Shown here piece by piece: positions 25,350 through 55,522 of a stretch of 64,000 bases of DNA. Numbering within the stretch: position 1 is the first letter of the stretch; each line of letters opens with the position of its first letter. The notes under the pieces were generated by a model, which was not told the origin of the DNA, made no database searches, and was given only the letters and a program-made list of their open reading frames with translations. The DNA lies in NCBI RefSeq assembly GCF_020921035.1, contig NC_063158.1, positions 6,244,001 to 6,308,000 on the forward strand, in the 5' to 3' direction. The stretch comes from Rhodamnia argentea. Lineage: Eukaryota; Streptophyta; Magnoliopsida; Myrtales; Myrtaceae. The position numbers and the translations under genes are program-made.

Positions 25350-27546
25350 TGGAAGTATTGGAAAATTTCTTTAGGAATGGGATGAACAATGGAAGCAGAC
25401 TTTGAGGCGTGATAACACTCTCTTTAAGGATTTATTTGCCCCACATCGTTGCTAATGGTTTCCAGCAAATATCCTCCAGGATACAACAAAATCTCAATGA
25501 GAATAGCATATAACAATTCTGATATTTCTCGGCGATCTCTCTAGAAAATAATTGGAAAGAGTGGCTGTATTTCTTGTTTGGAAAGAAAACAAAAAAAAAA
25601 AAAAATGAAAGAAGAAGATGTAATGATTGAATAGAAACGATTAGTAATTTATAGTGAAATTATTTGAAGAGACATGATCTTTCAAAGGTTAAGAAATTAT
25701 GTCCGAACGGACGCAACCTTTCAAAGGTTAAGAAGTTATATTTGAATAGACACAATTCGGATGCACCTCTACAAATGTTGTAGGAGCCCTTTGTGAATAG
25801 TCACACTGCTTCAATAGGACGCAATGGTTATTGTTGATTGTGCCAAATCTAGTCCATATGCGCACTCACATCTTTTCGATGTGTGACAAGGCACCTAGTA
25901 GTTTATTTTACAAACAAATTACCAACAATTCCCAACTTTGTTTGTAAAAAAAATTACAAAATAAATTTTTTCAAAAAATACAACCAATATTTTTATGAGA
26001 TTAATATACCTACATAAAGATCTCTTTCGAGTTAAACCTTTATTTAGTGCAAGTATCTCAAAACTCTATTAAAGTTACAAATAACTTAGCTTTAAATTTG
26101 TTACTCTATGTAATAGAATCGGACATACCACACATATATTAACTTCTTGTTTCAACGAGATGTTCATATTTACTCAGCACTATTATGGCATTGATCTTGT
26201 ACCTGTTTCATGAGCTCTTTAGAAAGCAACCCTAACTTTCGTAAGAAGAGGCACCACTTCTAACCTCATATAGGTGAACTATTTTCACGTGTTTCTATTA
26301 CTAATAAACACGTTACTAAATCGTATTATACTTCATTAAGAGTATAACTCAGTCTCTAAAACATAACAGACAATGTGCTAGTATCGGGTCGGGTTACTAT
26401 TAGTGATGATTTTAAGTAAAGGGTTTCGGCCTCGTTTCATTTGAGGTCACCTTTACCACATCTCTGGATAGAGCCTTTGTAAAGGGATTGGCTAGATTTT
26501 TGCTTGATATCATATAAACAATTGTTATTGTACCATCCTGAATCAATTGTTTTACGTACTCATATCTAAGACTTATCATTTTATAAGTGCCACTATAAGC
26601 CCTTGCCAAAGTAGCATGATTGTCACAATAAATAGAAATAGGAGACTCTCCACACATCCGAACGTGCGCAGAGTACAAATAGAGAGGTAGATATTGCCCC
26701 GCCACAAACAAGGCAAATATTGCCTGCGAAAATTGGGAACGCGGCAAATTGTGGGGAATTAGGCAGGGGATTAGGCGAATTGGGGTTCATTTTGTTTCTT
26801 ATATATTTTATGTACTTACAATCGAAAACCTAATGCAACGTGTATTATTATATTCCATTTATTTTTTCAAAAAATGAATGATTTAGAAAATATTTTTCTA
26901 GAAAATTTTCAATTAAGGGCTTCAAATATCCTCATTTTATCAAATAAGGGCATGAAGTGATTTTTGTTTCAAATAAAGGCCCGAATGACTTTATTTAGAT
27001 TATGTCATAATTTGATATCCAACAGCAAATTTCTAATCCAGTAAGCCTCTTTTCTAGTTGCTGCTAAAGTAATGAATTCCGATTCCATCATTGAGTGAGT
27101 TATGCATGTTTGTTTCTTGCTCGCCCAAGATACATCACATCTCCCCAATGGGAAGATCCATCCAGAAGTGGAATGTTTATTTCTTACACTAGAAATTAAA
27201 CTAACATCAGTGTATCCTTCTAACACTGCCGGATAATCATTATAGAACAATCCTAAATTTTTAGTTCTCTTAAGATACACAAAAATTATGGTAACAACAT
27301 TCCAATATTCTATACTAGGATTACGAGTGTATTTGCTCAACTTATATACGGAAAAGCAATATCGGATTGAGTACAATGCATCGCATGCATTAAAGACCCT
27401 ATAAAACACGCATATTCAAGTTGTGCTACTGCTCTACCAGTATTATAACTTAATTTGATACTGGTATCAAATAGAGTAGTCATTTCTTTGAAACTAAGAT
27501 GTTTAAATTCATTTGACATCTTTTCAATATAATCACATTGACTCAA
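25350..27546 (-). mobile_element. Ty1/Copia LTR element fossil (3' part)
   Basis: On the minus strand, pieces of Copia reverse transcriptase/RNase H are recognisable at 27546-27005 (for example GYTDVSLISS, STSGWIFPLG, SWASKKQ) and 26747-26412 (RNase H end, with YCDNHA and HVDIKY-like surroundings). A purine tract and an LTR beginning TGTTGGTAATTTG (25927) follow and run to about 25350. Only the 3' part and one LTR are present; gag, integrase and the other LTR are absent. It is interrupted by an AT-rich repeat at about 26750-27000. It is broken in several places and looks old. Confidence 0.75.
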
Positions 27547-27570
27547 AGAATAACCCCACTATGCCTTTTA

Positions 27571-27730
27571 GCGGGAAAATTACTAAAAAAGTCCTAAATC
27601 TATTACAATTATACCAATTCAGTCCTAATTTTTTTTTTGCTGATTCAATCCTAAACCTTTTTCAATTTTGCCAATTTAGTCCATCCAATGAATTTTGGCT
27701 AGCCGGCCAACGACCTAATTGTTGACACCT
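27571..27730. mobile_element. partial Mutator-type MITE end
   Basis: GCGGGAAAATTACTAAAAAAGTCCTAAATCTATTAC at its start is the terminal repeat of the 7042-7644 family, followed by the usual CCAATTTAGTCC blocks. The opposite end is missing. It abuts the outer end of the left palindrome arm. Confidence 0.6.
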
Positions 27731-27734
27731 AATT

Positions 27735-28855
27735 CTTAATTAGTTTTTCTTTACATTTTTTTAAAAAAAAAATCCATAAAAATTCATAAAATTGAAAAAA
27801 TTAACTTTGGGAACCTTGGCCTAGAATAAGGAACCAATTTTGAAGAAAAAATAATGCTTCACATTTTTCGCATTTTTAATATTTTTCAAAAGTAGAAAAA
27901 TACCCAAAAATCATAAAAATTACATTTGTGGCCACAAAAATCTGGAAAAATATCCAATATTTTTATTTTAATTCCCTCTTCATTTTTCCCTATGAAAATT
28001 TGAAAAATTCAATTTGTGGATGCATGAGTCTTCACAAACGTAAACCCAAATTGAGCGAAAAAAATTCATTTGAGGTCTTTCTATTGTTTTTCTTACTTTG
28101 AGTCAGTTGTCACATTTGATTCCTACACCTTTAATTGCATTTTGGTCCAATCAATTTCAATTTTTAAGCAGTTTGTAAAGTGGACCTATTTGCATTTTCG
28201 ATTTAATCTCCGGTTTCCGATTATAGTCAAATTGACCATTTTAAAGATGAACCCATGCGCAAACAAACATTGACCCATAAGTTTTTTGGCATTCGAAACA
28301 CATTGGCAATGTGATATTGACGCAAATTAGTAATTAAGAGCCCCAATTGGTCAAATTTTACATCCAGGTCAAACTTACGTTTTGGGGCTTTTACACAAAA
28401 TTGAACCGATTTGATTCGAAGGTGACATTCCTAGATGATATCCATTCTTTACAATTCAATTTTGAGCTTAATTTCATAAGAATAGGTCAAATGTGCAATG
28501 ACTTGGACTAAAAATGTGAAATCGGGTCAACTGGGTCGGATTGATCCGACCTAGTCAACCCGGCTTGACCCAATTTGGGCTACAGACCAAAATATTGGTC
28601 TTTCTCTTGTTCTTTGCGCACCGATCACGGGCCAAAAGAGATGGTCAAACTGTTGACCAAGGAACCCACAGTACAGTTCCTTCATTCGCACACCCGGGGA
28701 GCTCCAAAAAACCACACGAATAGAAGAAGATCGGGAAGCTGGATTGAGTTCAAGAGCTGTCCAACCAACTTCCTCGATGCCAGCTATTAACGAAAATACA
28801 ATCTGTTATGATGGTTGTTAAAAAAAGGGGGATGAATTCGGTAGAGGGGGGTTTG
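27735..28855. repeat. giant palindrome, left arm, outer part
   Basis: Read forward, this matches the reverse complement of about 40105-41215 across its whole length, with roughly nine in ten bases identical where I compared. Shared landmarks include TTTGCGCACCGATCACGGGCC and CCCGGGGAGCTCC. It is separated from the rest of the left arm by the chromovirus at 28856-36321. No coding content is recognised. Confidence 0.85.
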
Positions 28856-28859
28856 TCCT

Positions 28860-31800
28860 TTGAAGTCCGTAATGCGGGCTCTTAACATATTCTCCAAAAT
28901 TTGTATGACTCTTTCTGATTGTCCATCCGTTTGAGGATGAAAGGCCGTGCTAAAGCGAAGTTTGGTTCCCAACGCATCTTGGAAACTTTTCCAAAACTTT
29001 GCCGTAAACCTTGGGTCTCTGTCCGAAGTGATACTCATAGGAACTCCATGTAGCCTCACGATCTGCTGAACATATAAATTGGCCAATTTCTCCAGGGTAT
29101 AGTCGGTTCGCACCGCCCGGAAATGGGCTGATTTGGTCAAACGGTCAACTATCACCCAAGTGGAATCATGACCTCGTGAAGTTCTCGGTAATCCTTGCAC
29201 AAAATCCATGGTGATATGTTCCCATTTCCACTCGGGAATTTCTAAAGGCTTTGACATTCCCGCCGGCTTAAAATGTTCTGCTTTTACCCGTTGACAAGTT
29301 AAGCATTTAGAAACATACCTGGCGATATCTGTTTTCATTCCGTTCCACCAATAATGTTGTCGAAGATTTCGGTACATCTTAGTGCTTCCAGGGTGAATAC
29401 TATAGTTACTCCGATGAGCTTCTGCTAAAATTTCTCTTTTTAAGTCTTCATCTCTAGGTACGCAGAGACGTCCTCGGAACTTGACGATCCCTTTCTTAGA
29501 CACTTGGAAGTCTGGTTTCTTACCTTCTAATGCCTCATTTTGAATTTTAGAGATCTCAGAATCTGATTGTTGCAATGTTTTGATCTTTTGTACCGGTTCG
29601 GGCACTATCCTAAGTGTAGCAAGAATGCCGGTGAGTTCATCTATTTCCACTTTGAATTTTGAGTTTGAGATCTCACTTAACAACCCCCATTCCTTACTCA
29701 TCATACTGGCCATGTATAATGTAGATTTCCTGCTAAGAGCATCGGCTACCCTGTTTGCCTTACCAGGGTGATATAAGATCTCACAATCATAGTCCTTCAA
29801 TAGTTCCATCCAACGTCGTTGTCTCATGTTCAACTCCTTCCGAGAGAATAAATATTTTAGACTTTTATGATCAGTAAAGATTTGGAACTTTTCCCCATAT
29901 AAGTAATGCCTCCACATCTTCAATGCAAAAATAATAGCCGCCGGTTCCAAATCATGCGTCGGATAATTCAATTCATAAGGTCGTAGTCGTCGCGAAGCAT
30001 AAGCGATTACTTTTCCATGTTGCATTAAAACACAACCCAAACCTTTGTGTGATGCATCACTATAAATCACAAATCCTCTAGACCCCGATGGTATTGTTAA
30101 TATTGGAGCGGAAGTTAACTTTCTCTTGAGCTCTTGGAAACTTCGTTCGCATTCCTCTATACATTCAAACTTGACTCCTTTTCGTGTCAATTGGGTCAAT
30201 GGACCAGCGATGCGGGAGAACCCTTCCACAAATCTTCGATAATATCCTGCCAACCCTAGAAAGCTTCGAATCTCCGTAACGGTTGTTGGTCGAGGCCAAT
30301 TTACTACAGCTTCAATCTTGGCCGGATCAACGGAGATTCCTTCTCCAATAACCATATGACCCAAAAATATCACACGATCTAGCCAGAATTCACACTTACT
30401 AAATTTGGCGTATAACTTATGTTCCTTCAAAGTCCGTAATGTCATCCTCGGATGTTCTTCGTGTTCCCTAGGCCCTTTAGAATACACCAGGATGTCATCG
30501 ATAAATACTATCACAAACCGATCCAAATAAGGCTTGAATACCCTATTCATTAAATCCATGAATGCCGCTGGAGCATTCGTTAGTCCAAATGGCATAACTA
30601 GAAACTCGTAATGGCCATATCTAGTTCGAAAGGCTGTCTTAGGGATATCTTCCTCCTTAATTCCCAACCGATGGTAACCCGATCTTAAATCGATCTTTGA
30701 AAAAACTGAAGTTCCTTGTAATTGGTCAAACAGGTCGTCAATTCGAGGTAGAGGATATTTGTTCTTTATGGTCATCTGGTTTAGTTGTCGGTAATCTATA
30801 CATAGACGGAATGATCCATCCTTTTTCTTGACAAATAATACCGGCGCACCCCATGGTGATGTGCTCGGCCTAATAAAGCCTTTGTCTAATAATTCCCGTA
30901 GCTGCACTTTTAATTCTTTTAACTCTGCCAAAGCCATTCTATATGGAGCCCTAGAAATAGGCTCGGTTCCCGGAGCCAATTCAATAGCAAACTCAACCTC
31001 TCGCTTAGGTGGTAATCCCAGAAACTCTTCCGGAAAGACGTCCAGGAATTTTTGAACAACTGGGATTTCCTCTATCTTGGCTTCCTTCTTAGTCAAATCC
31101 TTCACACATGCTAAATAACCTTGGCACCCCTTGTCAAGGAGCACGCAAACTTCAATTGCAGAAATAAGAGGTATTGACACCCCTATTTTGCTTCCTAAAA
31201 ATTTGAAACTATCTCCATTGGATGGGTTAAACTGAATCACCCTATTAAAACAATCCACATTGGCTCGCATCTTGTGCAACCAATCCATCCCTACGATTAT
31301 ATCAAAATCGGACAAGTCCATTACCACCAAATCAATTTCCTTACCTTGCCTGCCTATAAAGATCTTACATTCCTTGCATATTAGAGTGGTTATCACTTTG
31401 TCCTTCAAGGGCATAGCTACACCGAGCGGTACTTCAAGCAATTCAGGCTTTAATCCACATAATTCAGCAAATCTTGTTGATATAAAAGAATGAGTCGCGC
31501 CGGTGTCGAACAGTGCATTAGCATTCCTATTGCATAAGAAGACCATACCTGTAATAGTTGTTTTGGAGGTCTCTGCCTCCTCTTGGGTCATAGCCCGAAT
31601 CCTTCCTTGAGTTGGAGGCCTTTGCCGAATTCCTGGGGGTTTTATTCCGTCGAGTCGGGGTTGTTGAGTTGATACGGTACGCGGGGACTGTTGTCTCCTT
31701 TGTGGGCAATCTCTGATCGGGTGCCCCACCTGTCCGCAACCATAACATTCCCTCTCGAAAGTACAGGGTGCATTACCATGTGCCTTACCACATCGACGAC

Positions 31801-32683
31801 AGGTTCCATTCGGGCGTGGTACATTACCCATCGTCCGACTTACGCTAGTCCTTCCGAAATCTCCAAAATTGCGTCTCTTAGTAGGAACATTAAATGACCT
31901 CCCAAACATCCTTGGTCTCTTATTATCTCGCCTCATATTATCCTGCGATACCTGGCGACTTGATCCCGCCTTTTGCTCATTTTTATCCTTTTCTTTCAGC
32001 AACACTTGCTCCACGAGTTGAGCTCGCTCGTAGAGTTCGGGATAGTCCCTAATCCTCGGAGGTGCTAACTGCTTTTGAATTTCAATCTTAAGGCCATTCT
32101 GAAACCTTTTACACCTACGTTCCCGAGTATCTATCAACCGAGGTGCAAACCTGGATAGCTCGGAAAATCTCGCTTCATATTGAACCACGGTCTTGTCACC
32201 TTGAGTTAAGCTCATGAACTCGGTTATCTTCCGATCCTTGGCGCAATCAGAGAAGTATTGCCCATAAAAGGCGTTAATAAAAACTTCCCAACTTACTTCA
32301 ATACCATTCGGAAATACCACTTCCTTATTCGCATTCCACCAATGCCGAGCGTTATCCTCAAGTTGATATTCAGCTAGGGCTACTCGATCCACATCGTTAC
32401 AGTTCAACAACCTAAAAATCTTCTCCATACTCTTAATCCATTTCTCGGCTTCTTCAGGTTCTCCTAATCCCGTAAACTTCAACGGCTTCAATTTCAAAAA
32501 TTGCTCGATCAATCCTTGTAAACGGCGTTCGCCTCCTCCAGCATTTGCACCAGCTTGCGGTTGCTGCATTTGAGCTCCTATCACCGCACCCAAATTGGCC
32601 AAGGCTTGCAAGACTTCATCAATTCGATTGTCCGCTCCTGCATTCCCGCCTCCGCCAGTTGATGACCCCCCGGTCCTTACCAT
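28860..32683 (-). other. chromovirus gag-pol region (gag to integrase core)
   Basis: Domains by rough residue number: retrotransposon gag (about 60-230), zinc knuckle [14 protein letters not shown] (about 320), aspartic protease with [11 protein letters not shown] (about 390), reverse transcriptase with [10 protein letters not shown] (about 735), RNase H with [10 protein letters not shown] (about 860), integrase zinc finger [10 protein letters not shown]...CLTCQ (about 1095-1130) and integrase core with [11 protein letters not shown] (about 1255). The domain order RT-RNase H-integrase is that of Ty3/Gypsy. It is treated as a fossil and belongs to the element at 28856-36321. Confidence 0.9.
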
Positions 32684-32897
32684 TGTAAACTTTTAGTCCT
32701 CTACACCTTCATCCACGCCCAATCATGACCAATAGAATTAGCCTTATAAGTAACAAATGATACTAAAGCCTATGAGTAACCTAATGGTTACTTATTTCAC
32801 AAACAAATACAACAATCACAAGCATTAGTATTTAAATCACGCGCGCGTCTTAGCACCCCCAAACGCTTTCGCACCTTATCACTCCAGGTAAACCTAG

Positions 32898-32910
32898 GCT
32901 CTGATAACAA
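32898..32910 (-). other. chromovirus primer binding site
   Basis: On the minus strand TGTTATCAGAGCC closely matches the plant initiator tRNA-Met primer site (TGGTATCAGAGC). It lies a few bases after the LTR end and about 215 bases before the gag start. Confidence 0.7.
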
Positions 32911-32917
32911 AAAGAGC

Positions 32918-35599
32918 TGTGGCGTCCCAGGCACCACTTCTAACGTATTTGGCGACCTATTGTTTCATAAACTTAAAAATCAACTCGAGCACATAAGAAC
33001 ACCAAATGATTATAAATGAAAAGTTCTTAAGAACTATACCACTACGGATACTAGCTAGTGGAAAGGAAGAAAACAACAACATTTATATTAAACTTTTTCC
33101 TTTACTAGTATTTACATTCGTCAAGCACGATCCAAAAAAAAAAACATTCCGGTGATTGGGAGGTCCGGGTTCCTACTCCGGGTCTTATTTACTAGAGCCC
33201 AACACCCAAAAGAAATCCAGCACTTCCTTCTTTGTCTTCTCACGCCTAGTCATCAAGCAAAGTATCCTCTTCGAAAGGGTCATCTTCTTGTGCGACATCC
33301 TCCTGATTGATTGGTTCATCAGCGGAATCTAGAGCGCAGTATGGGAAAGGACCTATCGGTTGTCCTCCTACGGGTAAGTATACAGCATGAAACTTATGGG
33401 GAACGACTCCAGCTACAAATCCCTCGTCTACCCATAGGGTGAACTCATATACAACTAGCTGCAATTCTGGCATATCTAAGTGGATCATATCGTAGTGTGT
33501 CACTTCATACTCTATAGGTACTCCGAAACGTCCAGCAGGTGGAGTGGCCATGATAGCTAATTTGAAAAAAAAGAAAATAAAATAAAAGTGAGCTTATAAG
33601 CTCAGCAAGGAATACCCGACCTTGTCGCCTAAACCAACTCTCCTCAACTTTTAGATCGGCTACGCTAAACACAATTACTGGCAAGAACATTAGCTAGATA
33701 ATAAGATTATATAGCATAAATAACGAGCACACAAAAAAGGAATTTATAAATGCATGCTGTTTGAACATTGTGACTCAAATATCACTAAGAGAGATTAGCT
33801 AGAACTACATTTATCAACGCCAATAGTAGCTAGGTGTGATGTATGCAATTTGTCAATGATGTACGGTGCAACCATGATTCTCTCCCACAACGTCCAGCCA
33901 TGATTCAGAAGTTGATCAGAGCTTTCTTGGCTCAATTCCTTGATATAGTGATCACAGGGCCCTAGTATCCCCCGCACATAGCTCGGGGGTAATTCACTTT
34001 ATGGCGCTTCCCCGCACACAGCTCGGGGGCACCCACACCCACAATTCCAGATGGACAATGCTTGTAGATACTTCATTATATAATGCAATGGGTGAGCTGA
34101 TTATTGTATGCATCACCTTAAAGAAATAGCAGCCTCATTACACATTAAACCGAGAGTTTTATTGCTTACATAACCTGACAATCTAGCACAATGTTCACTT
34201 ACCACATCAATATTATTACACACGTAATATTTAAGGATACTAACAAACAATTCCAATACCAAAACGACTAGCAAGACTTTCGAACCTATGTTACTTTATT
34301 GTCCTCACTTCGAAGATGACCATTCACGTTGGAATAAACACTCTCAGGGTATCCTCTCGATGTACCTCTCTTTTTGTCCCAAGACTTCCTAATTTCGTAT
34401 GTAACTAGTTATGTCAAGCCATCCATCACAACGCCTGGCCCAAGCACTATCTCAACTCGGTCCTTAATCTCAACTAGGATAAGAATCGGAGACCGTTAAT
34501 AAACTTGCATATATCATCCCGATTTGAAACAATAACCTCTCGGTCCCCTACCTTCCCCCACAAGTTCACCTTGTTCCTCATCGCATGCGTTTTTCCTAAA
34601 TCCAGCCTTTCCCCAAGTCAACTTCTTAATTCCAACAAAAAGGCAATCTGTATTTGCTCTACTTGAGGTATACTAGCCTCTACGCATCACTTTCTGACCT
34701 AAAAGATAAACAGATTTAGGTAATGCTTCCCAACTTTTCAACGTCGTCGAACTCGAATCCTCGCTAAGTCCCTCGAGTAAATTCAGAATAATTCACCTTC
34801 CTATATTTGCAATTACTAACAACTAAAGAACAAGGTCAAGATGAATTCCTTGCCTGTGATGTTTAGGGTAGGAATTTGGCTTCGCTTCAATCTTTCGCTT
34901 CAGCCGTTTCACGAACAGAAATTGTCTTCGTAAAGACCCCAAAATGAAACTGAAGAAGATGACTCCCTTGCTCCATGCAAATGGTCTTTTGAGTGTTTGA
35001 GCGAAAAGATGACATTTGGGAGAGATTTTGGCAATGAGTTCGCCACTTGTAATAAGGATTAGGGAGGGGCTGACACTTGCTTTTCATGCTTCAATAGTGC
35101 TGTCCTAATAATAGTTAAATATATATTTTTTTTATTGCCTTGCCAAGTGTCATTTAGCTTGTGCTACATATACCATGATGGTGTCCCCAATCTATATTAC
35201 ATACAACAAGGCCGAAGGACCTGATCAATCCTCTACGCAAATGACCAACCCATCCAATATGTGCCGAACACAAATTAAGGCCCCCTCATGCGACATGCAC
35301 TTCATTTAAGTTTCGAACTTTTGTTAATCCTGCCGAAATCCATCTTGGCGAAGCTAAATGTGTCGAACCCGAATTATTCCATAACAATATTTTAGATTCT
35401 CGTTATGTGCAGTCAAAATATCACGCATATTCTTAAGATACTTGACCATACGTAGCTTAACAGTCACGGTCTGGCTCACCTCTATCAATACACATTCTCT
35501 CCCTGTTGGTAGTACGAATCTTCTAGTCATGAGTCAGTTTTCTAATCCACTTTGGTCTTTTCTCAATCGATTAATAATTAACAAAAACGGGTTGTGACA
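32918..35599 (-). repeat. chromovirus LTR (single copy)
   Basis: It is bounded on the minus strand by the polypurine tract and TGTCACAACCC at one end and GGGACGCCACA before the primer site at the other; the two ends are an imperfect inverted repeat, as LTR ends usually are. I found no second copy in the window. An acidic open frame of 101 codons lies inside it at 33551-33246 (minus); I do not recognise its product. Confidence 0.7.
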
Positions 35600-35652
35600 G
35601 TTTCTCCCTACCATATAAAAATTTCGTCCTCGAAATTTAGGGCTTTAATCCA

Positions 35653-36310
35653 TCACTCAAATAGATGAGGGTACCGTTGTTTCATTGTTTCCTCAAGTTC
35701 CCAAGTAGTCTCTTCCGAGCCGTGATGCCGCCATAAAACTTTTACCAACGGAATGACCCTGTTCCTCGGGATTTGTTCCTTTCGATCCGTGATTCGCATA
35801 GGCTCTTCTATATACTTGGCCCTTTCATCCACTTCTATGGTCTCATAACTCAACACATGGTCAAAATCAGGCTGGTATTTCCTTAACATCGATACATGAA
35901 ACACATCATGTATATTGGATAGTTTTGGGGGTAAGGCTACTTGATACGCCATTTCTCCTATTCTTTCCAGGATTTCAAAAGGTCCAACATATCTAGGACT
36001 CAATTTTCCTTTCTTTCCGAGCCTCGATATGCCCCTTATTGGTGAGACTTTCAAGAATACATGGTCACCTACTGTGAATTCAAGAGGCCTTCGACGTTTA
36101 TCGGCGTAACTTTTCTGACAACTTTGGGTAGCTTTAAGCTTATTTCGCACTACCTGTATTACTTCGGTTGTGATTTGTACTAGTTCTGGTCCAGTTATTC
36201 TCCGCTCTCCCACTTCGTCCCAACAAACAGGCGTTTGACATCTTCATCCATATAGGGCCTCAAATGGCGACATGTCAATGCTTTGCTGGTAGCTATTATT
36301 ATAGGCAAAT
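35653..36310 (-). other. chromovirus integrase C-terminal part with chromodomain-like end
   Basis: Motifs EFAYNNSYQ and SPFEALYG of the integrase tail, then YADKRRRPLEFTVGDHVFLK (GPY/F-type module) and a chromodomain-like end LWRHHGSEETTWELEE. The chromodomain places the element among chromoviruses of the Tekay/Del type. It belongs to the element at 28856-36321. Confidence 0.85.
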
Positions 36311-36321
36311 TCCGCCAAATG

Positions 36322-38183
36322 ATCAAGAGAGAGAGCGAGGCGGAAGGGGAGAGAAAAAGGCTCTCTGCAAGTGGTTGGAGCCACCATTGAAGGACCTCGG
36401 GTCCGAGAGTTTCGAGTTGGACTCTCCGACAATCCAGGCGGTTTTGAACGCTATTATCGCCACCATTAGCCTGATCTCAGCCTTGCGACCACGCTAAGCC
36501 TAGTCGGCTTCGATTGAAGCCCCGAAACAAGTGAACTCCTCTTCGACTCGGCGAAAGCTTCGTTAATGGCAGACCTCGTTCCATTAGCTCGTCCTTTAAT
36601 ATTTTAGGTCTAGATGAGTCTGGAGCACTTACTAATCACGAATCTTCCCTTGCTTTGTGTTTTTACTGCATAAAAACCTTGCATCGACTCCCAAACTTCT
36701 TGAACTGGCCGCGAGCTTCAAATCTCATTTCGCACGTAGGTGAAGTAATACAATCGTCGGGTAAGCTCTCTTAACTCATTATGATGCTACTGGATGTTTT
36801 GGAATGGAGTTTTGCACGAAGTGTGCCAGGTTGCGCTTTCGCCGAACATAGGTGCTCGGCCGGCTCTGGTTCAAGTATTTCTAGGGTAGATTTTAACATA
36901 GGACCGAGGCATATTGATGAGGAGGAAATGAAGAGTCGATTAGTATAAAAATCGTGGTATTTCGATGAAGTTTCGACGTCGGACACGAGTTTTTGGCGAG
37001 GCATCGGCGAGAATCGTCTTCTCCGACGGTCCGTTGATCGGCCAACCCTTGTTGACCGGTCAACATCGACGTGACGCCACGTCGGCGGGCCGTTGTCATC
37101 GAAATAACAAAAAAAATAAAACGTGATCCGACGGTGGTAGAAATGCCACGTGTCGCGATCTTGTCTTTCTGGAAAATAAATTGATTTTTTGAAATTATTT
37201 TGGTTTTTCGAAAATAAAAATATGATTTTGTGATCGCGCGGCTTAGGTTTGGTTGCGCGTCACCTTTTTGATTGTCGGATCAAGATTTATTTTTTCTAAT
37301 AAAAAGAAAATCATTTTCAATAATAAAAAAATGTTTCCGATCGAATGGCCACGGTTCAACCATGCGTTTCAATCGTGGATGTCAATTTCTTGCGTCTGAT
37401 CAGAGCATTCGAATGTCGCCATGTCGCATGTTCTAGTGCGTCGGCTAGTTTTAGGAGGGAAATCTGAAAATGAGTTCAAAAAAATCTATCAAAAATTTTT
37501 GAAAATTCAAAATAGAATGCTTGGAGCAACGTCATTTTGCCGAGGCTGATCGAGCCCATTTGGGCCGGGCCGGCCATCCGCTGGTTGTGGGCCGGGTCAC
37601 ACGACCCGGCCCGGATAATAACTTTTCTCAATAAAAAAATTTTGAAAATGATTTTTAAAAAATAAAAAAGGGGAAAATCATAGAAAATCCAAAAAAAAAA
37701 AAGGCAAATTTTGCAAAAAATTCCTAGAAAATTTCAGAAATTCTCAAAAATTGAGGAATAATCACAGTCAATCGGCCAATCCTATTTTTGAGATTTCTCC
37801 TTCCGATATTTCTGAAATAACGATTCTTCCCTTTAGGGGTAAATGCGTCCTGAAAAATTCCTGAGATTTGCGAAAATGCCAAAATTAGGATTTGGGTCGG
37901 GTTAGGCGACTAATCTTTTAGTTTGGGTTTTCGAATCTCATCAAGATTCTGAGATGACGATTTTACCCCTTAAAGGGCAAATCGCCTTCGAAATTTTTTT
38001 GAGTCGTGAAAATTGCAAGAATTAGGAGATAAATCAATTAGGTGGCTAATCCTTCTATCTAGGATTTTCATATCTCGTTTCATTGAGAAAATGACGATTT
38101 TACCCTTAAAGGGTAAATTGTCCCAAAAAATTCCTTGAAAATTTCAAAAAATTCTAAAAAATGTCGAATATTCTAGTAAAGCC
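36322..38183. repeat. giant palindrome, left arm, inner part
   Basis: It matches the reverse complement of about 38188-40071 throughout. Landmarks: AAAAAGGCTCTCTGCAAG, GTTGACCGGTCAAC and ATGCCACGTGTCGCGA. Near the centre the arm carries about three internal direct repeats of 134-138 bp, anchored by CGATT(T/C)T(A/T)CCC at about 37822, 37960 and 38094. No protein family is recognised. Confidence 0.88.
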
Positions 38184-38187
38184 CTAT

Positions 38188-41100
38188 TGGCTTAGAGAAT
38201 TTTCGACATTTTTTAGAATTTTCTGCAATTTTCATGGAATTTTTGGGGACAATTTACCCTTTAGGGTTAAAATCATCATTTTCTCAATGAAACAAGATAT
38301 GAAAATCCCAAATAGAAGGATTAGCCACCTAACCGACTCATCTCCTAATTCTAGCAATTATCACGACTCGCAAGGAATTTGAGGGCGATTTTCCCTTTGA
38401 GGGGTAAAATCATCATCTCAGAATATGGATGAGTTTCGAAAACCCAAACTGGAATATTAGTCACCTAACCCGACCCAAATTATAATTTTGGCATTTTCGC
38501 AAATTTCAGAAATTTTTCGGGACCGGTTTACCCCTAAAGGGTAGAATCGTCATTTCAGAAATATCAAAAGGAGAAATCTCAAAAATAGGATTGGCTAGTT
38601 GACTATGATCATTCCTCAATTTTTGACAATTTTTGGAATTTTTGGAATTTTCTAGGAATTTTTTGCACAATTTTCCTTTTTTTTTTTTTGGATTTTCTAT
38701 GATTTTCCCCTTTTTTAATTTTTTAAAATTAATTTTTGAATTTTTTTATTGAGAAAAATTATTATCTGAGCCAAGTCGGGTGACTCGGCCCACAACCCGC
38801 GGACGGCCGGCCCGGCCCGAATGGGACCCGATCAGCCTCGGTAAAACAACGTCGCTCCAAGCATTCTATTTTGAATTTTCAAAAAATTTTGATCGATTTT
38901 TTTTTACTCATTTTCAGATTTCCCGCCTAAAACTATCAAACACACTTGAACATGCCACGTTGTGACATTCGGATGCTCTGATTAGACGCAAGAAATCAAC
39001 GGCCACGATTGAAACGCATGGTTGAACTGTGGCCATTTGATTGGAAACATTTTTTTTATTACTGAAAATGATTTTCTTTTTATTAGAAAAAAGAAACCTT
39101 GATTAAATGATCGGAAAGGTGACGCGCGGCCAAACCTGGGCCGTGCGATCACAAAATCAGATTTTTATTTTCGAAAAACCAGAATAATTTTAAAAAATCA
39201 ATTTATTTTCCGAAAAGACAGGATCGCGACACGTGGCATTTCTACCACCGTCGTATCAAGTCTTATTTTTTTGTTATTTCGGTTACAACGGCCTGGCGAC
39301 GTGGCTGCCATGTAGCGTTATGTCGGCGTTGACCGGTCAACAAGGGTTGGCCTACCAACGGACCGCCGGAGAAGACGATTCTCGTCGACGCCTCACCGCA
39401 AACTCGTGCTCGACGTCGAAACTTCGTCGAAATACCACGATTTTTATACTAATCGACTCTTCATTGCCTCCTCATCAACATACCTCGGTCCTATGTTAAA
39501 ATCTACCCCGGAAATACTTGTACCAGAGCCGGCCGAGCAAATATGTTTGGCGAAAATGCAACCTGGCACACTTCGCGCAAAACTCCATTCCAAAACATCC
39601 AGTAGCATCATAATGAGTTAAGAGAGCTTACCCGATGATCGTATGACTTCACCTACGTGTGTAATGAGCTTTGAAGCTGCCGGCCAGTTCAAGAAGTTTG
39701 GGAGTCGACGCAAGGTTTTTATGCAAGAAAAACACAAAGCAAGGGAAGAGTCGTGATTAGTAAGTGCTCCAGACTCATCTAGACCTAAAATATTTAAGGA
39801 CAAGCTAATGGAACGAGGTCTGCCATTAATGAAGCTTTCACCGAGTCGAAGAGAAGTTCACCTGTTTCAGGGCTTCCAAATAAGCCGCCTAGGCTTAGCA
39901 TGTTCGCAAGGCCGAGATCGAGCCAATAGTGGCGGCGACGACGTTCAAAACCGCCCGGATCATCGAAGAGTCCAACTTGAAACTCTCGGACCCAAGGTCC
40001 TTCAATGGCGGCTCCAACCGCTTGCAGAGAGCCTTTTTCTCTCCCCCTCCGCCTCTCTTTCTCCTATTCTTTTTTTGGCCTCCCCTCCAAAAATCCCCAC
40101 GAACCCCCTCTATCGAATTCATCCCCCCTTTTTTACCAACCATCATAACAGATTTTATTTTTGTTACCATCCGGCGTCGTGGAAGTTGGTTGGACAGCTC
40201 TTGAACTCAGTCCAGCTTCCTCATCTTTCTCTGTTCGTGCATTTTTTTGGAGCTCCCCGGGCGTGCGAACGAAGGAACTGTTTTGTGGGTTCCTTGGTCA
40301 ACAGTTTGACCATCTCCTTTGGCCCGTGATCGGTGCGCAAAGAACGAGAGAAAGACCAATATTTTGGTTTGTAACCCAAATTGGGTCGAGCCCGATTGAC
40401 TAGGTCGGATCAATCCGACCCAGTTTACTCGATTTCACATTTTTAGTCCAATTCATTGCACATTTGACCTATTCTTGCGAAATTTAGCTCAAAATTGAAT
40501 TGTAAAGCATGGATATCACCTAGGAATGTCAACTTCAAATCAAATCGGTTCAATTTTGTGTAAAAGCCCCAAATCATAAGTTTGACCCGGATGTAAAATT
40601 TGACCAATTGGGCCTCTTAATCACTAATTTGTGTCAATCTCACCATGCCAATGTGTTTGGAATGCCAAAAAACTTATGGGTCAATGTTTTTTTGCGCATA
40701 GGTTCATTCTTAAAATGGCCAATTTGACCATAATCGGAAACCGAGGATTAAATCGGAAATGCAAATAGGTCCACTTTGTAAACTGCTCAAAAATTGAAAT
40801 TGATTGGACCAAAATGCAATTAAAGTTGTAGGAATCAAATGTCACAACTGACTCAAAGTAAGAAAAATAATAGAAAGACCTCAAATGAATTTTTTCACTC
40901 AATTTGGGTTTTCGTTTGTGAAGACTCATGCATCCACAAATTGAATTTTTCAAATTTCCATAGGGAAAAATGAAGAGGGAATTAAAATAAAAATATTGGA
41001 TATTTTTCTATATTTTTGTGGCCACAAATGTTATTTTTATGATTTTTGGGTATGTTTCTATTTTTGAAAAATATTAAAAATGCGAAAAATGTGAAGAATT

Positions 41101-41215
41101 ATTTTTTGTTTAAAACTGGTTCCTTATTCTAGGCTAAGGTTCCCAAAGTTGTTTTTTTCAATTTTATGAATTTTTATGGATTTTTTCCTAAAAATTTTCT
41201 AAAGAAAAGTCGATT
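38188..41215. repeat. giant palindrome, right arm (uninterrupted)
   Basis: This is the complete reverse-complement partner of 27735-28855 plus 36322-38183. The turn is at about 38184-38187, where GCC/CTATT/GGC and the flanking AATGTCGAA/TTCGACATT pair almost to the middle. The open frames here mirror those in the left arm and have no family features, so I treat the arm as non-coding. Confidence 0.88.
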
Positions 41216-41222
41216 AAAAATC

Positions 41223-41910
41223 GGGTTCCTTATACCATGAATCCCGCAAAAGCTCAAACCTGAAAATTTTTCGTTAACGAATGATGTGCCATTCTAGGAT
41301 CCGGGGATACCGGGAATCCCAAAGAAGCGTTATTCTGGGATCGGGGGTTACCAAGAATCCTGCCGAAACTTAGACCTGAAAATTTTTCCTTACCGAAAGA
41401 GGCGTCCTTTTAGGATCCGGGTTACTAGGAATCCTACATAAGCTTAAACTTACCGAAAGAGGCCATTTCGGGATTTAGGTTTACCGGGAATCCTGCAGAA
41501 GCTTAAACCTGAAAATGTTTTCTCACCAAAAGAGGCATCCTTTTGGGATTTGGGGTTACCGGGAATCCCGCAGAAACTTAGACTTCAAAATTTTTTTTTT
41601 CACAAAAGAAGTAGCGTTCTGGAATTTGGGGATACCAAGGATCCTGCAAAAGTTTAAACATGTAAATTCATTCTTACGTTTCGAGATCCGGGGATACTAG
41701 GGATCCTACATAAGTTTAAACATGTAAATTCTTTCTTACCAAGAGAGATAGCGTTATGAGGTCCGGGGATACCGGGGATCTTACATAAGCTTAAACTTGC
41801 AAACTCCTTCTTACCAAGAGATGTGATATTCTCCTGGGATCCGGGGTTACCGGGAATCCCGCAAAACTTTAAACATGAAAATTTTTCTCCACCAAGAGAA
41901 GATCATTGAT
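41223..41910. repeat. minisatellite, about ten units of about 75 bp
   Basis: The repeated core is TCCGGGGTTACCGGGAATCC, then GCAGAAGCTTAAACCTG, AAATTTTTCTCACC and AAGAGG. Unit starts are near 41223, 41299, 41340, 41420, 41475, 41549, 41623, 41686, 41761 and 41839. Some units are shortened, so the spacing varies from about 40 to 80 bp. The array starts directly at the outer end of the right palindrome arm and has no counterpart at the left arm. The unit contains no open frame maintained through the array. Confidence 0.85.
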
Positions 41911-43441
41911 CTTTTATGTGGTATCTATTATCGGATCGACAAAACTTTACAACTTAAATCAAAGTCGTGAAAAAGTTTGAGTGAATGCATTATGATGCCA
42001 GAGGTTATCCAAAATATCTTGCAACATGTTAAAGTGATAAAAAATCCCTTGTGGGAAAAGTTTGAATCCAACGATCTGAAATTACCAAAAGAGTTTAATT
42101 AAAACACTAATTGGAGTATTCTCACCAAAGAAGACTTCTCACCAATTTGAGATGACGGTTTTTTTTATTTATTTTGAAAACACTCGAATTTCCTATCAAA
42201 CCTATAGTTAGGATTCGGGACTATTCGCAATGTATACATTTCGATTAATCAGGAGGTCTTCCGAGGGACCGTAATGTCGGGCTTGGTCAACGGTTTTCAA
42301 GAGGGACTCACGAATGAGTCAAGGCTATTAAACGGAAATCTTCGTCATCTGCTCCAGGTCTACAAGTCAAGAACCCTGTAAAATGAGAAAGAAATAATCT
42401 TGCTCGTACTTCTTCGAGCGAAGCTTAGAATCATTTAACTCTACGTTAATCCAAGTGCCTTAATCGGAAAAGGATTTTCAGGACTGTAACGTAAGTGAGG
42501 ATTAAGGACTAAAAAGGTTTATTTTGGCTCTAGAATATACGAAAGGGTTTGACGCTGGTGATCATTGCAAATTTGCCACCAGTCCCGACCCTTTTGGATT
42601 ATTTTTCTAAGAGTATCTTTAGTTTTCGAAATATATCAATAGTCTTTGGGGAGCACCTCAAGTTTTCGAAGTGCACATTTATCTTCGGAGAACACCTCTA
42701 TTACGTCAAGATGGTTCAAACTTTTGTCTATGTTTTCATCACCTGAGTATGACATAACTATGTAGTATCTTTCGTGATCTAGCTCCCCTGGGGATTTTCT
42801 TTTACAACCATATCTCGCTGGGAATAAAGATATCATGGAATCTTTTAATGCTTACAAGATCAAACACATGATTTACAAGTGTACGAGTACTTCAATGGGC
42901 ATTGCCTTTGCTTTTTACCGGGCGCTTTGCTTTTCTTGATGCCCAGGATTAGCTTTTTCTCCCTTTTTCTTTTTCGCCTTTTTTTTTATTTATTGAAATC
43001 CCACCTTTTCCTTTCTTTTTAGAAACAGAATTTTCAATGATTATGCTAGGTATACAAATTGAATCCCAACATGTTTAAAATAAATCTGGGAATTCTCTAC
43101 AAATTCTGTCCTTCCGTCGCTTTGAAGTGATGTCCTCTTTGTGTTGAAATAGGTAATGATCACCAACGGGGTTTATGAAATGAATGTATAGGCTCAATTG
43201 GGCTGTGCAAAGTATAAAAGTGTATAGGATAGAGAAACGAATGCCTTTTGTCATCCTAAAGCACCCGAATTACCGTATAAGTTTAAATGTCAAGCAATAC
43301 ACGAAGATTGATGCTAGTCTGAACAAGAAAATTTATAACCATTTGCCTCCCGATACCACTCTCATTTGGCCTCGATGTGGGGTGGCTCTTGACAGAGGTA
43401 AAGAAATTAAACCACCGTTCAATGGGGTTATTAATGGTAAC
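41911..43441. other. anonymous, probably element-derived sequence
   Basis: No domain is recognised in any frame. A phrase GGATAGAGAAA(C/T)GAATG occurs at 43227 and again at 43991, on both sides of the MITE at 43442-43975. Continuity with the palindrome suggests an old non-coding element, but this is not proven. Confidence 0.35.
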
Positions 43442-43975
43442 TAGGGGTTTGCAAAAAAGATCGCTCGGACCGGACCGGGATCGATGGTCCGGTTCCCGAT
43501 TTTAGGGGGATTCGGTTCGGTTCTCGGTTCCTAAAATTGGAACCGGTGACCAGGCCGTCCGGTTCCCGATTCCAAGGCCCAGGACCGGACCGGACCGGTC
43601 CTTTTTAAATTTTTTTTTAAAAAAAAACAAACCTAACGTTTACCCGTTGTTTAGGTTTAGGTCATTTAGGGTTCGATCCAGAGCTGTCAATTGAAGAGGC
43701 ATTGACTTCGCCGAGCTCGTGGTACACCGACCCTTGTTTCCTCGATCTCGAGCTCAATCGCGTCTTTTATCAAAGTGTGTATCCACTTTTTGGAACCGCG
43801 GACCGGAAATCCTTAGAACCGCCCGGGAATCGAACCGGACTGATGGTCCAGTCCGGTTCCCAATTCCGAGGGTGGCTGGTCCGGTCCGCAGTTTGGAAAA
43901 GTGGGAACCGGGACCACCGGTTCGGTTCCCGATTTTTGATGGGAACCGGACCGGATCGGGAACTGCTCAACCCTA
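43442..43975. mobile_element. hAT-type MITE, 534 bp, rich in GGTTCC/GGACCGG
   Basis: Ends TAGGGGTTTGCAA and, reverse-complemented, TAGGGTTGAGCAG are inverted; both are preceded by GTAAC on their own strand, so the inverted repeat is slightly longer. The interior is built from CCGGTTCCCGATT and GGACCGGACC motifs in both orientations. It belongs to the same group as 5038-5579. No direct target duplication is visible. Confidence 0.65.
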
Positions 43976-45948
43976 GTTACTTGTAGTGTTTAGGATAGAG
44001 AAATGAATGTCTTCCATCTTCCCAATGTATGTTCTCACTGCGAATGACCCCTATGTCCGTAGGTTAAGGTTTTGCTATCTCTTCCACTCCACTCGTCTCT
44101 CAAGTGTGTGTAGGACGTGTTTGGATCGAGCTTGCTTCTGAGAAAACATCCTTTGAATAGTTAAAACAACTCTTGTTGAAAAAGTTCATTTCGTTTTCTT
44201 CAAAATTTTACCTCCCATTGGGATTTATGATGCATCATGCATGCTCTAGTCATGTTCAAATAACCTCCAATTTTTAAACATGAATACTAGCGAAGTGATT
44301 GTGAGAATTCTAAGCCTTTTCTAGACCTAAGAATTGAATACGTCCTAGATTCCTAGAAGTCTTAACATTCTAAGAAGAAAATACTCTGAAAGCTTTAAAC
44401 CCTAAGAGATTAGGAAAATGAATACTTACTTGCCCGTCATGACTGAATATCCCTAGGGATATAAAAGGAATATGTTAGTGTATGTTCTCGAATTTTTGAG
44501 AAAATTGGACCGATACAACTTATCCTCGGTTATGCGCTCCAATTTAAAGGAGAATGCATGGGATGTGGAAATCTGTAATTTACTTAACAAGATAGGATTG
44601 CTAAGTATTGTAAAACTTCTTGAAGTTTTGGAATTTTAGAGGGACGTGACATTTACTTGTCCACCGTGATGGCGAGTCTCTATCAAGTTCGAACATTAAG
44701 TGTCGGTTCATGTTTTCAAACCCAAGACAAGTTGAAACGACACGGCCTTACTTTTGATTAGGCATTCCAATGTATAGATTATAGAAACTTGGTTGTCATG
44801 TTGACAATCCCTCTTCCTGTACCGGTGATGAGTCTCTCCTAGTATATTTTTTTGAAGTCTTTCACTCTCTTCTGTCTTGTATGTTTGCACCGATAGGTCA
44901 TCTTTTTCAGGTTGTGTTAAACATTGCATGCCATTTTTCATCCTAAGAATTCCTGCTCAACAGCGTTGAATCCCTTTGGATGGGTCCATTGAGATTCTCG
45001 AAGTTCTTGACATTTCCTATTCAAGAAATAAGGAAACTTGCATTAGGATTTACATTAGAGAATGTGATGGAGGCGACACATTTTACTCTCCACTTGATCA
45101 AAGATCATTTCTTGAGCGTCCGATTTTCCAACGTTGATATTTCTTTTGATCCACGTGAGCCAACTCTTTCCTTCGAGTTCTTTTGAGTATCAATAATTTC
45201 CTGTTGAAAGGAGGACAAATTCATGTTAGGAATAGGATAATTGAAGATCAAATTAGAACGATATGAAGTTGCCCTTCACTTGAGTCAATATGTTGAAAAT
45301 TTTGAGATTTTGCTCTAATGTGAACGACCTCTGTTGAATCCATCCATTCTATTTTTTAGAGGTGTTACTTACGAGAAAACTTATACCAGGTTTGCTTGAT
45401 GGTTACGTATTTCTCTTGTGTCCATTGACTTGATAGAAATGAAATGTCTCACTTTCACATCCGGTTGCACAAACGATTCACTTACTCCGGCTAGGCGACA
45501 CTTGCTCCGGCTAGGTGACGTTTGCCCCGCTTAAAGGGTTTAATTCTTTTCCACATTTTTGTCCAATTTGGAATACCCTTTGTTTGGGATTTTGACTTCT
45601 TTCTTCTTGTTTACCTCCCTTTAGGGTATTGCATCTTCAATGTTTGAGAAATTGTCTTTTACAGATGTCTTGTCACTTGTTATCTCCCTGATGACATTTT
45701 CCCTTTATTGGAGTTAAGAAGATATCTTATCGACACATTCAATATGGACAATCTCTACCAAATTCTTCCACCCGTCCTTGAAGGAATTGACCATGAGAAA
45801 ACCCTTGCCTACATCAATGATCCATTTGCCCCAGTTGGGCGATGTCTGTCTCGGCCAAATGGCCTAGTACTTTTCCATATTCGCTTGCAATTTCCTATCC
45901 ACTTTAAGGATGTCTTTGTACCTACACACGAAGAAATGAATGTCAACT
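43976..45948. other. anonymous sequence
   Basis: No gene family is recognised. The longest frame (45708-45992, +) opens without a promoter or homologue I know. The sequence GCTCCGGCTAGG(C/T)GAC is repeated at 45487-45520. Confidence 0.35.
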
Positions 45949-46639
45949 CGTATTGTACGATATGTCATATGACCCAAGACAATATCTTCTAATTAAAATA
46001 ACTTACGGTGGACTTTAAAACTTACTGGATAATCGAGAGGAAAATTTTACTGGGTGTTGAACTAAACCAAAATTGAATTCGACAAAAACTAGAAAATTAC
46101 TCACCTTGTACGGATTGGATTAGGAATCGGTACACTTTCAAAGTAGTATATTAAAAGGACGACTTGCGCATACAAGTATCAAGTTTAGATTGGGAATACA
46201 TGAAGTCGACCATCAAACAATTCGCCCTTACTACACTTCCTATAAGCTGCCGCCGCTAGCCACGGTTTTTTTTCTTTTCTGCCGCACAACTCGCCCTTAT
46301 TTATTGGACCGGCGGTGGATGAACTCGAGCGGATAGTTCTAAGCTTAATTAAGCTATGGCTGCAGTGACCTAGCCCATTTGTTCTCACGGCCGAAATTAA
46401 TTGAGGATTAATTAAATTAAAGAAAGGAATGGAGAAATATATGAGAAAATTCGGCAAAAAAGGGATCTCGTGAAGGGACGTACATTCGTAATCAATGAAT
46501 AAAAGACAAGAACGAGAGAGAATTTGGCTGATTCTGTGGATATGGAAGTAAAACAAGAGAAGTAAATTAAATTTCAGCATGATTTCTTTCCTGAAAGAAC
46601 AATTCTCTCACCGTTTGGAAAGGCCACGCGGGCGTCGTC

Positions 46640-46647
46640 TATAAAAG
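46640..46647 (+). promoter_or_regulatory. TATA box of unit A
   Basis: TATAAAAG lies in GTCGTCTATAAAAGAGGAGG, conserved in unit B at 55515-55522. A GC-rich leader of about 330 bases follows. It lies 2.0 kb before the DUF295 start, so it would serve that gene only if the stretch between is a 5' UTR intron. The acceptor-like TTTGCAG at 48678-48684, five bases before the ATG, would fit. Confidence 0.45.
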
Positions 46648-48688
46648 AGGAGGCTTCACACCACACGCGGGGATTCCGAATTTGACGATACACGGCCGAA
46701 GACCCCCTCCGCCGTCGCCACCTGTTGAAGACTCGGCTTCCGCCGAGACCCCTTCCATTGACCGACGCTGCCTGGTGCAGCCTCGACGAGTCACTGTCCT
46801 TCCCCGACGACGAAGCCTCCATTCCAACAGCCTGCACCATTCCCCCGCCGCTGTCCCCGACGTCGATTTGGTGGCTGCCGTGCGACGACGTTGCTGCCCT
46901 CCCTTCACGACGACGGCAAGGCTACCAGTCAGGGAGCATCCCGAGGATCCATTGTTCGCGATCCCATCGGCGATTCGTTATCCGTTCGAATTTGGAACCT
47001 AATCTCCGCAAATTTGGTGAATATCTTTATCCGAATCTATTTGAACATTGGATAATCTGACGATATATTTTGAGCTAGGTAACCGGTTAGGATTTATTTC
47101 CTAATCCACAAATATCAGATAATTTTTTATAGGTGGTGAACTATTAATTTAGTGGGTATTACGAAATTTGATAATTGATCTACCAGGCATTATATCAATT
47201 ATCAAATTTAAATGAAATTGTGAAATATTCAAGTTGATTTTATCCGCTTTCCTTATTTGAATTGGTTCGAGTGGATCGTTATCTTGCATATCATTATCTG
47301 CATCTTTAAAAATTTTAAAAATTGTAGCTTATATATGAAATTTCATGTAGATTAAGTTTGCAAATTATTTTAGATAGAATTACATATTTTGAGTTAGATT
47401 GCATTCATAGGATAGAATTTTTTTATAGATACTAGATTTTAGAAAGACATTGCATTTAGGACAGAGTTTGCATGTTTCAAATAGCTTATCTTTAATAGGG
47501 ATATATATGCTTTTGACATAATTTAATCAGGCATGTCATTAAATCCGGAAATAATAAAAATTTCATTTGCATGTCACATTTGCCACAACATTTAAGCATC
47601 TCATATAGTCGCATGTTATGATAATTAATTCCTAATGTAGCTTGAATGTTGGATTAATGTTATTTAATTGCATGTCATGTAGAGTTAGTCATGTAATTAA
47701 TCAAGTTCATGCCATGTTAAATTAGAATTCACTTTCATGTCATTTTTGTATGCATTCGTCCTAGCTTAGATTGCATTCATTTATCTCCTTGATTAGAATT
47801 CATGTATTGCGCATAGTTTATTTCATATATAAGGTGAAAAACCAAAAAGAGAGAAATAATTGTTTTGCGTATGCTCCCTACCCACATTTACCTTGCATTT
47901 TTTGGTGCCTGATTTCATTGATTGCACATCTTAAAATCAATTAAGCTGCCTGCTATGTTTTCATAAATAAAATGAAATGGTATCGACAGGGCAATTCCTC
48001 GAACTCAAAATCTTTGGTTCGAAAGAATAGAATAATCCTCCACCTATTCGTAAACAGAATAGTGATGACTCCAAGTTAGACATATTGCATGTTAAGATAT
48101 GAATTTGGGAGAGTTCGAGCCAAGAGTTAATTAAATAATTAGCTTAGCAGTCCGTTAGCGTAGTTTTGACAAAATTTAGGTCGTGACACCAACGCGTTAT
48201 TAAAACAGTGGGATGACATCTTTCGATGCAAAATTCATTGGTAAAACTGGCTAAATTAGAGACTTGGGATGTTATGATGGTGACAAAGTTCATGACTCTA
48301 CGAACCATAGACCCGGTGCCGTTTCTTCAACAACGCTAGTTCTTCCGCACGTGCTTGGTTAGTTTCTCATTAATCAATAATAAGGATAACAATTTTATTC
48401 TAATGATTAAAAATAAATTAATTATTTGACACTATCCTCTTACCACTATACGAACTCACTTCTAGAAAGTGAACATTGAATGAATGTTTATAAAGTATAA
48501 CTTTTTAGTGGAAGGTGGGTAGCAAGCTTTTTTTAATTTACATGTTAATCCTTTCTCTTGGTCAACTTAATATGTAGATGAGGGTTAATTGGAAATTTAA
48601 AGCGAGACTGTTTACTTAGATATATAGATGTTTACTTGCTATAAGAGACTGAGGGGCTGTGCATATTGGTGTTGGCCTTTGCAGAAAG

Positions 48689-49636: not shown

Positions 49637-50135
49637 GATCAACAAAATCAATGCTACCAAATATAATAGTGTTTCCAACTCCCCTTTTTATACGACATCC
49701 AAAATACACTGTCTCTTTGCTCCATTATGGATTTAAAGATAAAGATTTTCAAAAAAAGACATCCTTCAATTTGCTCTATTTTATTTGCTATTGAACCAAA
49801 CCTAGCTATTTAAAATGGCTGTATTCAACTAACACTAGGAATGTTCCCTTTCAAGTTAACTCTCCTTGTAGGAATTATGTACTGGGAATCAGTGTAGCTT
49901 CAATCTAGGATAGTTATTTTAAACGAAGAGAGTTACCTACACATACGACTATCAATTTAGATCACGGATAATATTTCATCAACCGATCGAGTTACAATGC
50001 TACTTCGTTCGACTTGTAATGTGATCTTCACTTCTGCATTAAATTCTTGTATCCGTACATTTGCTACGAGAATGTACGTTTAAGACAATTGAGACAATGA
50101 GCGGTAACCCAATTATGCATGGAGCGGTAACACCG

Positions 50136-55514: not shown

Positions 55515-55522
55515 TATAAAAG
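55515..55522 (+). promoter_or_regulatory. TATA box of unit B
   Basis: TATAAAAG in the same context as 46640-46647 of unit A. A leader rich in GAGA (55555-55605) follows; this GAGA tract is absent from unit A. Confidence 0.45.

Follow-up and report, generated by a model that had tools for sequence, protein, structure and literature searches.

Fold-back inversions at DNA double-strand breaks are among the closest described systems to the locus reported here. In the yeast events described in PMC11724301, capture at the break involves microhomology of 0-5 bp (median 2), and the inversions span 2 to ~150 bp, longer ones being said there to have been reported earlier. Pol theta, as described in PMC11292364, extends stem-loops from two terminal base pairs. 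The present locus, a giant palindrome in Rhodamnia argentea, resembles these events in having an inverted copy, short microhomology, a small loop, and templated filler (PMC11724301, PMC11292364). However, its copy is 3 kb long, compared with 2 to ~150 bp for the inversions described in PMC11724301, and its mechanism has to be read from the scar. By extension from the short events, fold-back may plausibly reach 3 kb. Another close system is Mu killer of maize, in which part of a transposable element is likewise duplicated in inverted, rearranged form, with the potential to give a long hairpin RNA (PMC3440606). According to the account in PMC3440606, Mu killer duplicates transposase coding sequence of MuDR and silences MuDR in genetic tests, whereas the palindrome duplicates just the non-coding long terminal repeat (LTR) of a retrotransposon, has arms that are ~10% diverged, and is known here from its sequence.

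The window, that is, the whole stretch of 64,000 nt that was analyzed, was compared with itself. The self-comparison paired the two parts of the left arm (arm A) with the right arm (arm B) in inverted orientation, which confirmed the palindrome with ~3-kb arms described in an earlier note and slightly corrected its ends (Table 1). The outer parts of the arms (27745-28850 versus 41208-40104) are 91.95% identical over 1106 columns in blastn, and the inner parts, which run to the centre from 36329 on the left and from 40063 on the right, are 88% identical (1649/1872 columns). The near-absence of a spacer was also borne out, as only 25 nt (38173-38197) between the arms are unshared. In the predicted RNA fold of the central 971 nt (37700-38670), a stem with small mismatches continues to a 5-nt loop at 38184-38188, which is closed by a 5-bp stem (AAGCC/GGCTT) inside the 25-nt centre; the ~5-base loop placed at 38185 in the note thus holds for the predicted fold. 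A chance origin of the palindrome is excluded by its blastn E value of 0 and by its folding energy of -629 kcal/mol versus a mean of -219 for 20 shuffles. A check of the coding content of the arms found no Pfam match for their 190-aa frame (39757-40329), and no Rfam family reached its gathering score in 27000-46500.

Table 1. Features of the palindrome and its surroundings, in positions of the window.
Feature	Positions	Strand	Remarks
Left flank	27571-27719	.	~72% like part of the fold-back repeat 7040-7645; CTAAT just before the LTR start
Arm A, outer part	27720-28856	+	From the LTR first base (TGTTGACACC) to ~LTR position 1135; 92% to arm B
Insert in arm A, permuted one-LTR gypsy element	28857-36321	-	Boundaries from a relative
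Arm A, inner part	36322-38172	+	Continues from LTR ~position 1170 as far as the arm end at ~3.05 kb of the LTR
Centre, 27-nt LTR segment	38173-38199	-	Last 2 nt overlap arm B
Arm B, inverted LTR	38198-41226	-	From the common inner end back to ~LTR base 8
Family 3' non-coding internal region	41227-45949	-	~75-nt tandem repeats at 41233-41900
Right boundary	45950-45964	.	Retrotransposon sequence ends; duplicated KIB1-4 segment (matches 54871 onwards) starts

What are the arms? Sequence comparison indicates that each corresponds to about 3 kb from the start of a 3.8-kb LTR, and that this LTR belongs to a family, probably of gypsy type, that is abundant in the 347-Mb genome. In the earlier note the arm sequence was not recognized as a known transposon family, a view that gives way to the many related places in the genome and to a complete LTR pair of the family. 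Queried with 184 bp taken from the inner end of arm A, the genome yielded at least 50 matches (40/226 candidates scored); 601 bp taken from the outer part yielded at least 40 (40/2256 candidates scored). Such candidate totals are first-look numbers and not verified copies. The arms were recognized as LTRs because two of the matching loci, L016 and L022 (C11:23139-23156 kb), have in common a 3.8-kb direct repeat with defined terminal sequences and GTCTC on both outer sides. The two copies of this repeat are 98.8% identical and 13.9 kb apart; they start with TGTTGACACC (TGCTGACACC in the 3' copy) and end with GTCGCGACA. The element therefore has TG...CA ends, and the GTCTC represents a 5-bp target duplication (one pair checked). 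The palindrome itself has the 5' TG end alone, and no target duplication was found around it.

Among the 40 outer-query matches listed, six pairs of places are <20 kb apart. Four pairs lie on the same strand with a spacing of 12.9-13.9 kb (L016/L022 was aligned, the other three were not), and two lie on opposite strands, namely the palindrome locus and C1:1954430/1965598. LTRs are naturally inverted in DIRS elements. A naturally inverted-LTR retrotransposon was considered for the palindrome and found unsupported because 4/6 of the close pairs among these matches are on the same strand.

Loci of the family also carry coding sequence. Retrotrans_gag was matched by Pfam in L018:7472-8293 and L022:1142-2392, downstream of the 5' LTR, and this gag was the one gypsy-type protein retrieved for the family. 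In L025, a frame beside the LTR matches the copia-type reverse transcriptase (RT) domain RVT_2 in Pfam. This locus seems to be a solo LTR inserted into a copia element, and the copia RT was taken as belonging to the insertion target because copia-like sequence seems to flank the LTR on both sides. A search for an antisense Transposase_28 frame gave no Pfam match in two ORFs (≥90 aa) of L031, the one locus scanned. The internal region of the family is ~10 kb long, and ~75-nt tandem repeats before the 3' LTR, a Tat/Ogre/Retand trait, are present in the window as well as in L016, L046, and L047. Together with gag, the 5-bp target duplication, and the TG...CA ends, these features liken the family to the Tat/Ogre/Retand type. 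Its putative lineage is presumably that of the long-LTR, non-chromovirus gypsy elements of this type. Tandem repeats upstream of the 3' LTR are described as a Retand trait in PMC11963269, although the LTRs of the Retand set given there measure 315-1194 bp, compared with 3.8 kb in the arm family.

How are the two arms related to each other? Seven LTR fragments (arms A and B, L029, L030, L012, L018, and L025) were aligned with MAFFT. Arms A and B differ at 298 of 2966 columns (K=0.109). Their distances to L029 are K=0.316 and 0.322, respectively, those to L029 and L030 overall are about 0.32-0.37, and those to L012, L018, and L025 are 0.45-0.50. In other words, the arms are mutually closest, at K=0.109 versus at least 0.31 for the five other aligned LTRs. 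Searches of the genome agree with the alignment. The best own-genome match of the outer segment is the other arm (94%; the next is 84% among the matches listed), and the same is true for the middle segment (92%; the next is 83%; 7/7 candidates scored). Near-full-length matches to this middle segment number four genome-wide, and the palindrome accounts for two of these (7/7 candidates scored). Such mutual closeness points to one LTR source or to the two LTRs of one element and is unexpected for independent insertions. Both arms have decayed similarly: at sites where L029 and L030 agree there are 76 changes on arm A and 92 on arm B, most often C>T and G>A.

Arm A starts at the first base of the LTR, and arm B is without the first ~7 LTR bases. 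At the centre, both arms end at the identical LTR base, ~3072 of 3798 as counted on L016. The centre read in the direction of arm B is TTCTCTAAGCCAATAGGGCTTTACTAG, a 27-nt piece of LTR that lies 187-190 nt past the arm end in the nine relatives compared. This filler also occurs at 14 loci (11 places) beyond the palindrome (blastn-short; 13-27 nt, 87-100%), and in the set of 20 loci L009-L028 it was matched in 9 and had no match in the remaining 11. The junction overlaps at the centre, judged by eye, are TT and ATT (2-3 nt). No centre-spanning copy was found elsewhere in the genome among 40/251 candidates scored, and no second junction of arm B with the 3' tandem repeats among 40/409. The two-armed structure is absent in 20 family loci, 18 of which have the LTR on one strand; the other two, L019 and L027, are without near-identical inverted arms. 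A fold-back or terminal-inverted-repeat transposon was rejected as an identity for the palindrome because the structure was found once (40/251 centre candidates scored).

The outer flanks of the arms differ. To the left of arm A, the immediate flank (27571-27719) has relatives in the window that are just 67-77% alike over longer matches, and in a search for an empty site the sequence next to it (27380-27570) proved to be a dispersed repeat (40 of 3476 first-look candidates scored). The immediate flank does not resume at the right boundary in the comparisons made; its two weak matches at 62.2-62.4 kb (48 and 123 bp, 69-75%) lie well away from there. Likewise, CTAAT is absent at the right boundary, where the nearest occurrence is 40 bp on, within the duplicated gene segment and also in its other copy. 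To the right of arm B, the ~75-nt repeats correspond to sequence that relatives carry upstream of their 3' LTR. Compared with two relatives, this side is without ~1.1-1.4 kb of LTR-adjacent sequence: the stretch from the tandem repeats to the LTR is kept in L016 (~1.4 kb) and L046 (~1.1 kb), and in L047 the LTR was not reached. A deletion beside the 3' repeats as a subfamily trait found no support, as the junction was found just here (40/409 scored) and L016 and L046 keep the stretch. Within the 3' non-coding region there is a ~540-bp insert (43442-43982) with roughly inverted ends, CTAGGGGTTTGC...GCTCAACCCTAG, that is absent from L031. Beyond the right boundary, 45950-59281 holds duplicated segments with KIB1-4 beta-propeller frames at 48653-49636 and 57894-58877, ~8.9-9.2 kb apart.

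Little else of the element was detected in the window. For the last ~700 bp of the LTR and the first 4.1 kb of the family internal region, window matches were limited to the 27-nt centre and short stretches inside the arms. When the window was searched with the pol of the arm A insert, no second pol turned up.

Taken together, the palindrome is probably a private inverted duplication of one LTR that arose by fold-back or template switching in DNA repair, as a one-off accident. The pattern of fold-back and template switching is recognized from the common end point of the arms, the filler of 27 nt templated nearby, and the overlaps of 2-3 nt. The common end point lends support, because two independent breaks would seldom share one base. 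We infer the repair pathway and the order of events as follows. At a broken end or a stalled fork, synthesis would leave the LTR at position c, ~3.05 kb in. Then 25-27 nt would be copied backwards, from ~c+213 to c+187, before the strand folds back, a step in which ATTCT and AGAAT would be able to pair. The LTR would next be copied from c toward its start, or a sister copy of the same broken end would be joined. More joins would link the copy, at LTR base ~8, to the 3' tandem repeats of the element and lead on to the KIB1-4 region at 45949/45950. A pure fold-back would be expected to leave matching outer flanks, yet arm A ends precisely at the first LTR base beside unrelated DNA and arm B runs into the 3' repeats. 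Because of this mismatch, further switches or later deletions must be assumed under the fold-back reading.

A second locus of the family bears on how inverted copies are made. At C1:1950.9-1969.7 kb (L048, L049, and L051), a family member has an inverted LTR in the place of its 5' LTR. The inverted copy carries ~113 bp of the sequence preceding the 3' LTR and, past the end of the LTR, 9 bp of genomic flank; the two end stretches compared (167 and 192 bp) match the end regions of the element's own 3' LTR at 98%. The genomic flank in the copy suggests that inverted copying at the DNA level occurs in this family, with the caveat that five of the nine flank bases may be the target duplication and the other four may match by chance. 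In the literature listed on inverted or aberrant LTRs and palindromes, no paper was recognized as describing an arrangement like that of the palindrome, which is no proof of absence.

An inversion of the 3' part of a single element could also have brought two LTRs tail to tail, with arm A as the 5' LTR at its insertion site, arm B as the 3' LTR, and gag-pol and the remainders of both LTRs deleted. The differing outer flanks are better accounted for by such an inversion than by fold-back: arm A adjoins other DNA precisely where the LTR starts, and the 3' non-coding sequence beside arm B has the side and orientation expected at a 3' LTR. The two LTRs of a single element would also be mutual best matches, as the arms are. 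This origin is possible but unlikely, because both LTRs would have to be broken at one base with loss of everything beyond it, the end of the LTR and the start of the internal region are unmatched in the window apart from the centre and the short matches inside the arms, and the right boundary is without CTAAT. The accident may instead have happened during reverse transcription, when a strand switch would join a plus-strand LTR to a minus-strand copy of the 3' end in a hairpin cDNA that was then captured by the chromosome. Plus-strand DNA starts at the first base of the LTR, which is exactly where arm A starts, and short template-switch overlaps suit a reverse transcriptase as well as a repair polymerase. 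However, the palindrome showed no target duplication, its right end falls in internal sequence and not at an LTR end, and the comparable case on C1 has genomic flank in its inverted copy. A hairpin cDNA is therefore a doubtful source of the palindrome.

Two related elements that inserted independently and came to lie tail to tail by chance are a most improbable origin. There is a precedent for such an arrangement in L019 (C5:22215100-22225000), where a plus-strand LTR is followed by a minus-strand LTR within 365 bp. However, the arms in L019 are 70-74% alike in longer stretches, compared with 88-92% in the palindrome, whose arms are mutually closest and both end at the same LTR base. L019 (1373-7685) is in its own right a second tail-to-tail LTR pair of the family, and it probably represents two separate insertions because its arms are just 70-74% alike. 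An assembly artefact, made from fold-back reads or duplicate haplotypes, is equally improbable, even though palindromic chimeric reads are a known artefact of long-read sequencing. The arms differ at 298/2966 aligned columns, one arm only has an insert of 7.5 kb, and the outer flanks are different, all of which argue against an artefact; furthermore, the palindrome sits in a contig of 27.1 Mb. The preferred reading remains a fold-back duplication of one LTR.

The insert that interrupts arm A was called a chromovirus in the earlier note. It is indeed a gypsy element; a chromodomain had no match in its two main frames, and its circular permutation had been overlooked. Read along the minus strand, the insert has the C-terminal part of integrase (35653-36243, SH3_Tf2-1), an LTR, a primer site, gag-protease-RT-RNase H, and the first part of integrase. 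A single LTR-like stretch (TGTCACAACCCG...) runs from ~35599 to 32920 on the minus strand and is followed by the motif TATCAGAGC, which we take to be a typical primer-site-like sequence. Gag, protease, RT, RNase H, and the first part of integrase lie in a single open frame that is broken off at 28857. In a relative at C7:18631400-18631850, both integrase pieces stand side by side, separated by 19 nt. The insert itself yielded no repeat pair. The middle of its LTR is present at length in four places (one on C9, two on C7, and one split on C6; 17/17 candidates scored), and no normal two-LTR copy of the element was seen among them. From its arrangement, the insert looks like a one-LTR circle that was opened in integrase before a break captured it, the circle losing 19 nt and arm A some tens of bases. 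The same arrangement would result from a unit cut out of a tandem array. In the literature listed on circle reinsertion and permutation, no paper was recognized as describing this arrangement, which is no proof of absence. A captured one-LTR circle would be a possible route for extrachromosomal retrotransposon DNA back into the chromosome.

Other repeats were observed in the window. A dispersed element of ~3.9 kb is present at both window ends in opposite orientations (1-3938 and 62837-64000; 78-90% identity), and its right-end copy extends to ~6310492 on C9 (L032). A ~600-bp imperfect palindrome (~73%) at 7040-7645 is related to the left flank of arm A and looks like a fold-back miniature element. 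A tandem pair of ~610-bp copies with 87% identity occupies 17183-18401.

Could the palindrome give rise to a hairpin RNA? Each arm has a TATA-like motif that points to the centre, TATAAAAATCG at 36944 on the plus strand in arm A and 39438-39448 on the minus strand in arm B, and both motifs are putative promoters. A transcript from either of them would fold, and a stem of ~1 kb or more is physically possible. When arm A is divided into 2933 windows of 21 nt, perfect pairing with arm B is possible for 384, and 128 of these 384 occur exactly in other loci compared. It is conceivable, at a low probability, that convergent LTR promoters yield double-stranded RNA that is cut by Dicer-like enzymes into RNAs of 21-24 nt, which would silence the family in trans. 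If so, such a putative silencing hairpin would act as Mu killer does on MuDR, yet it would be aimed at the non-coding LTR of a many-copy family. The palindrome can be read as a scar in which a single LTR, its inversion point, the 27-nt filler drawn from a known place in the same LTR, and joins of 2-3 nt are all legible. Scars of this kind illustrate how plant retrotransposons can give rise to long inverted repeats, which serve as raw material for hairpin silencing loci.
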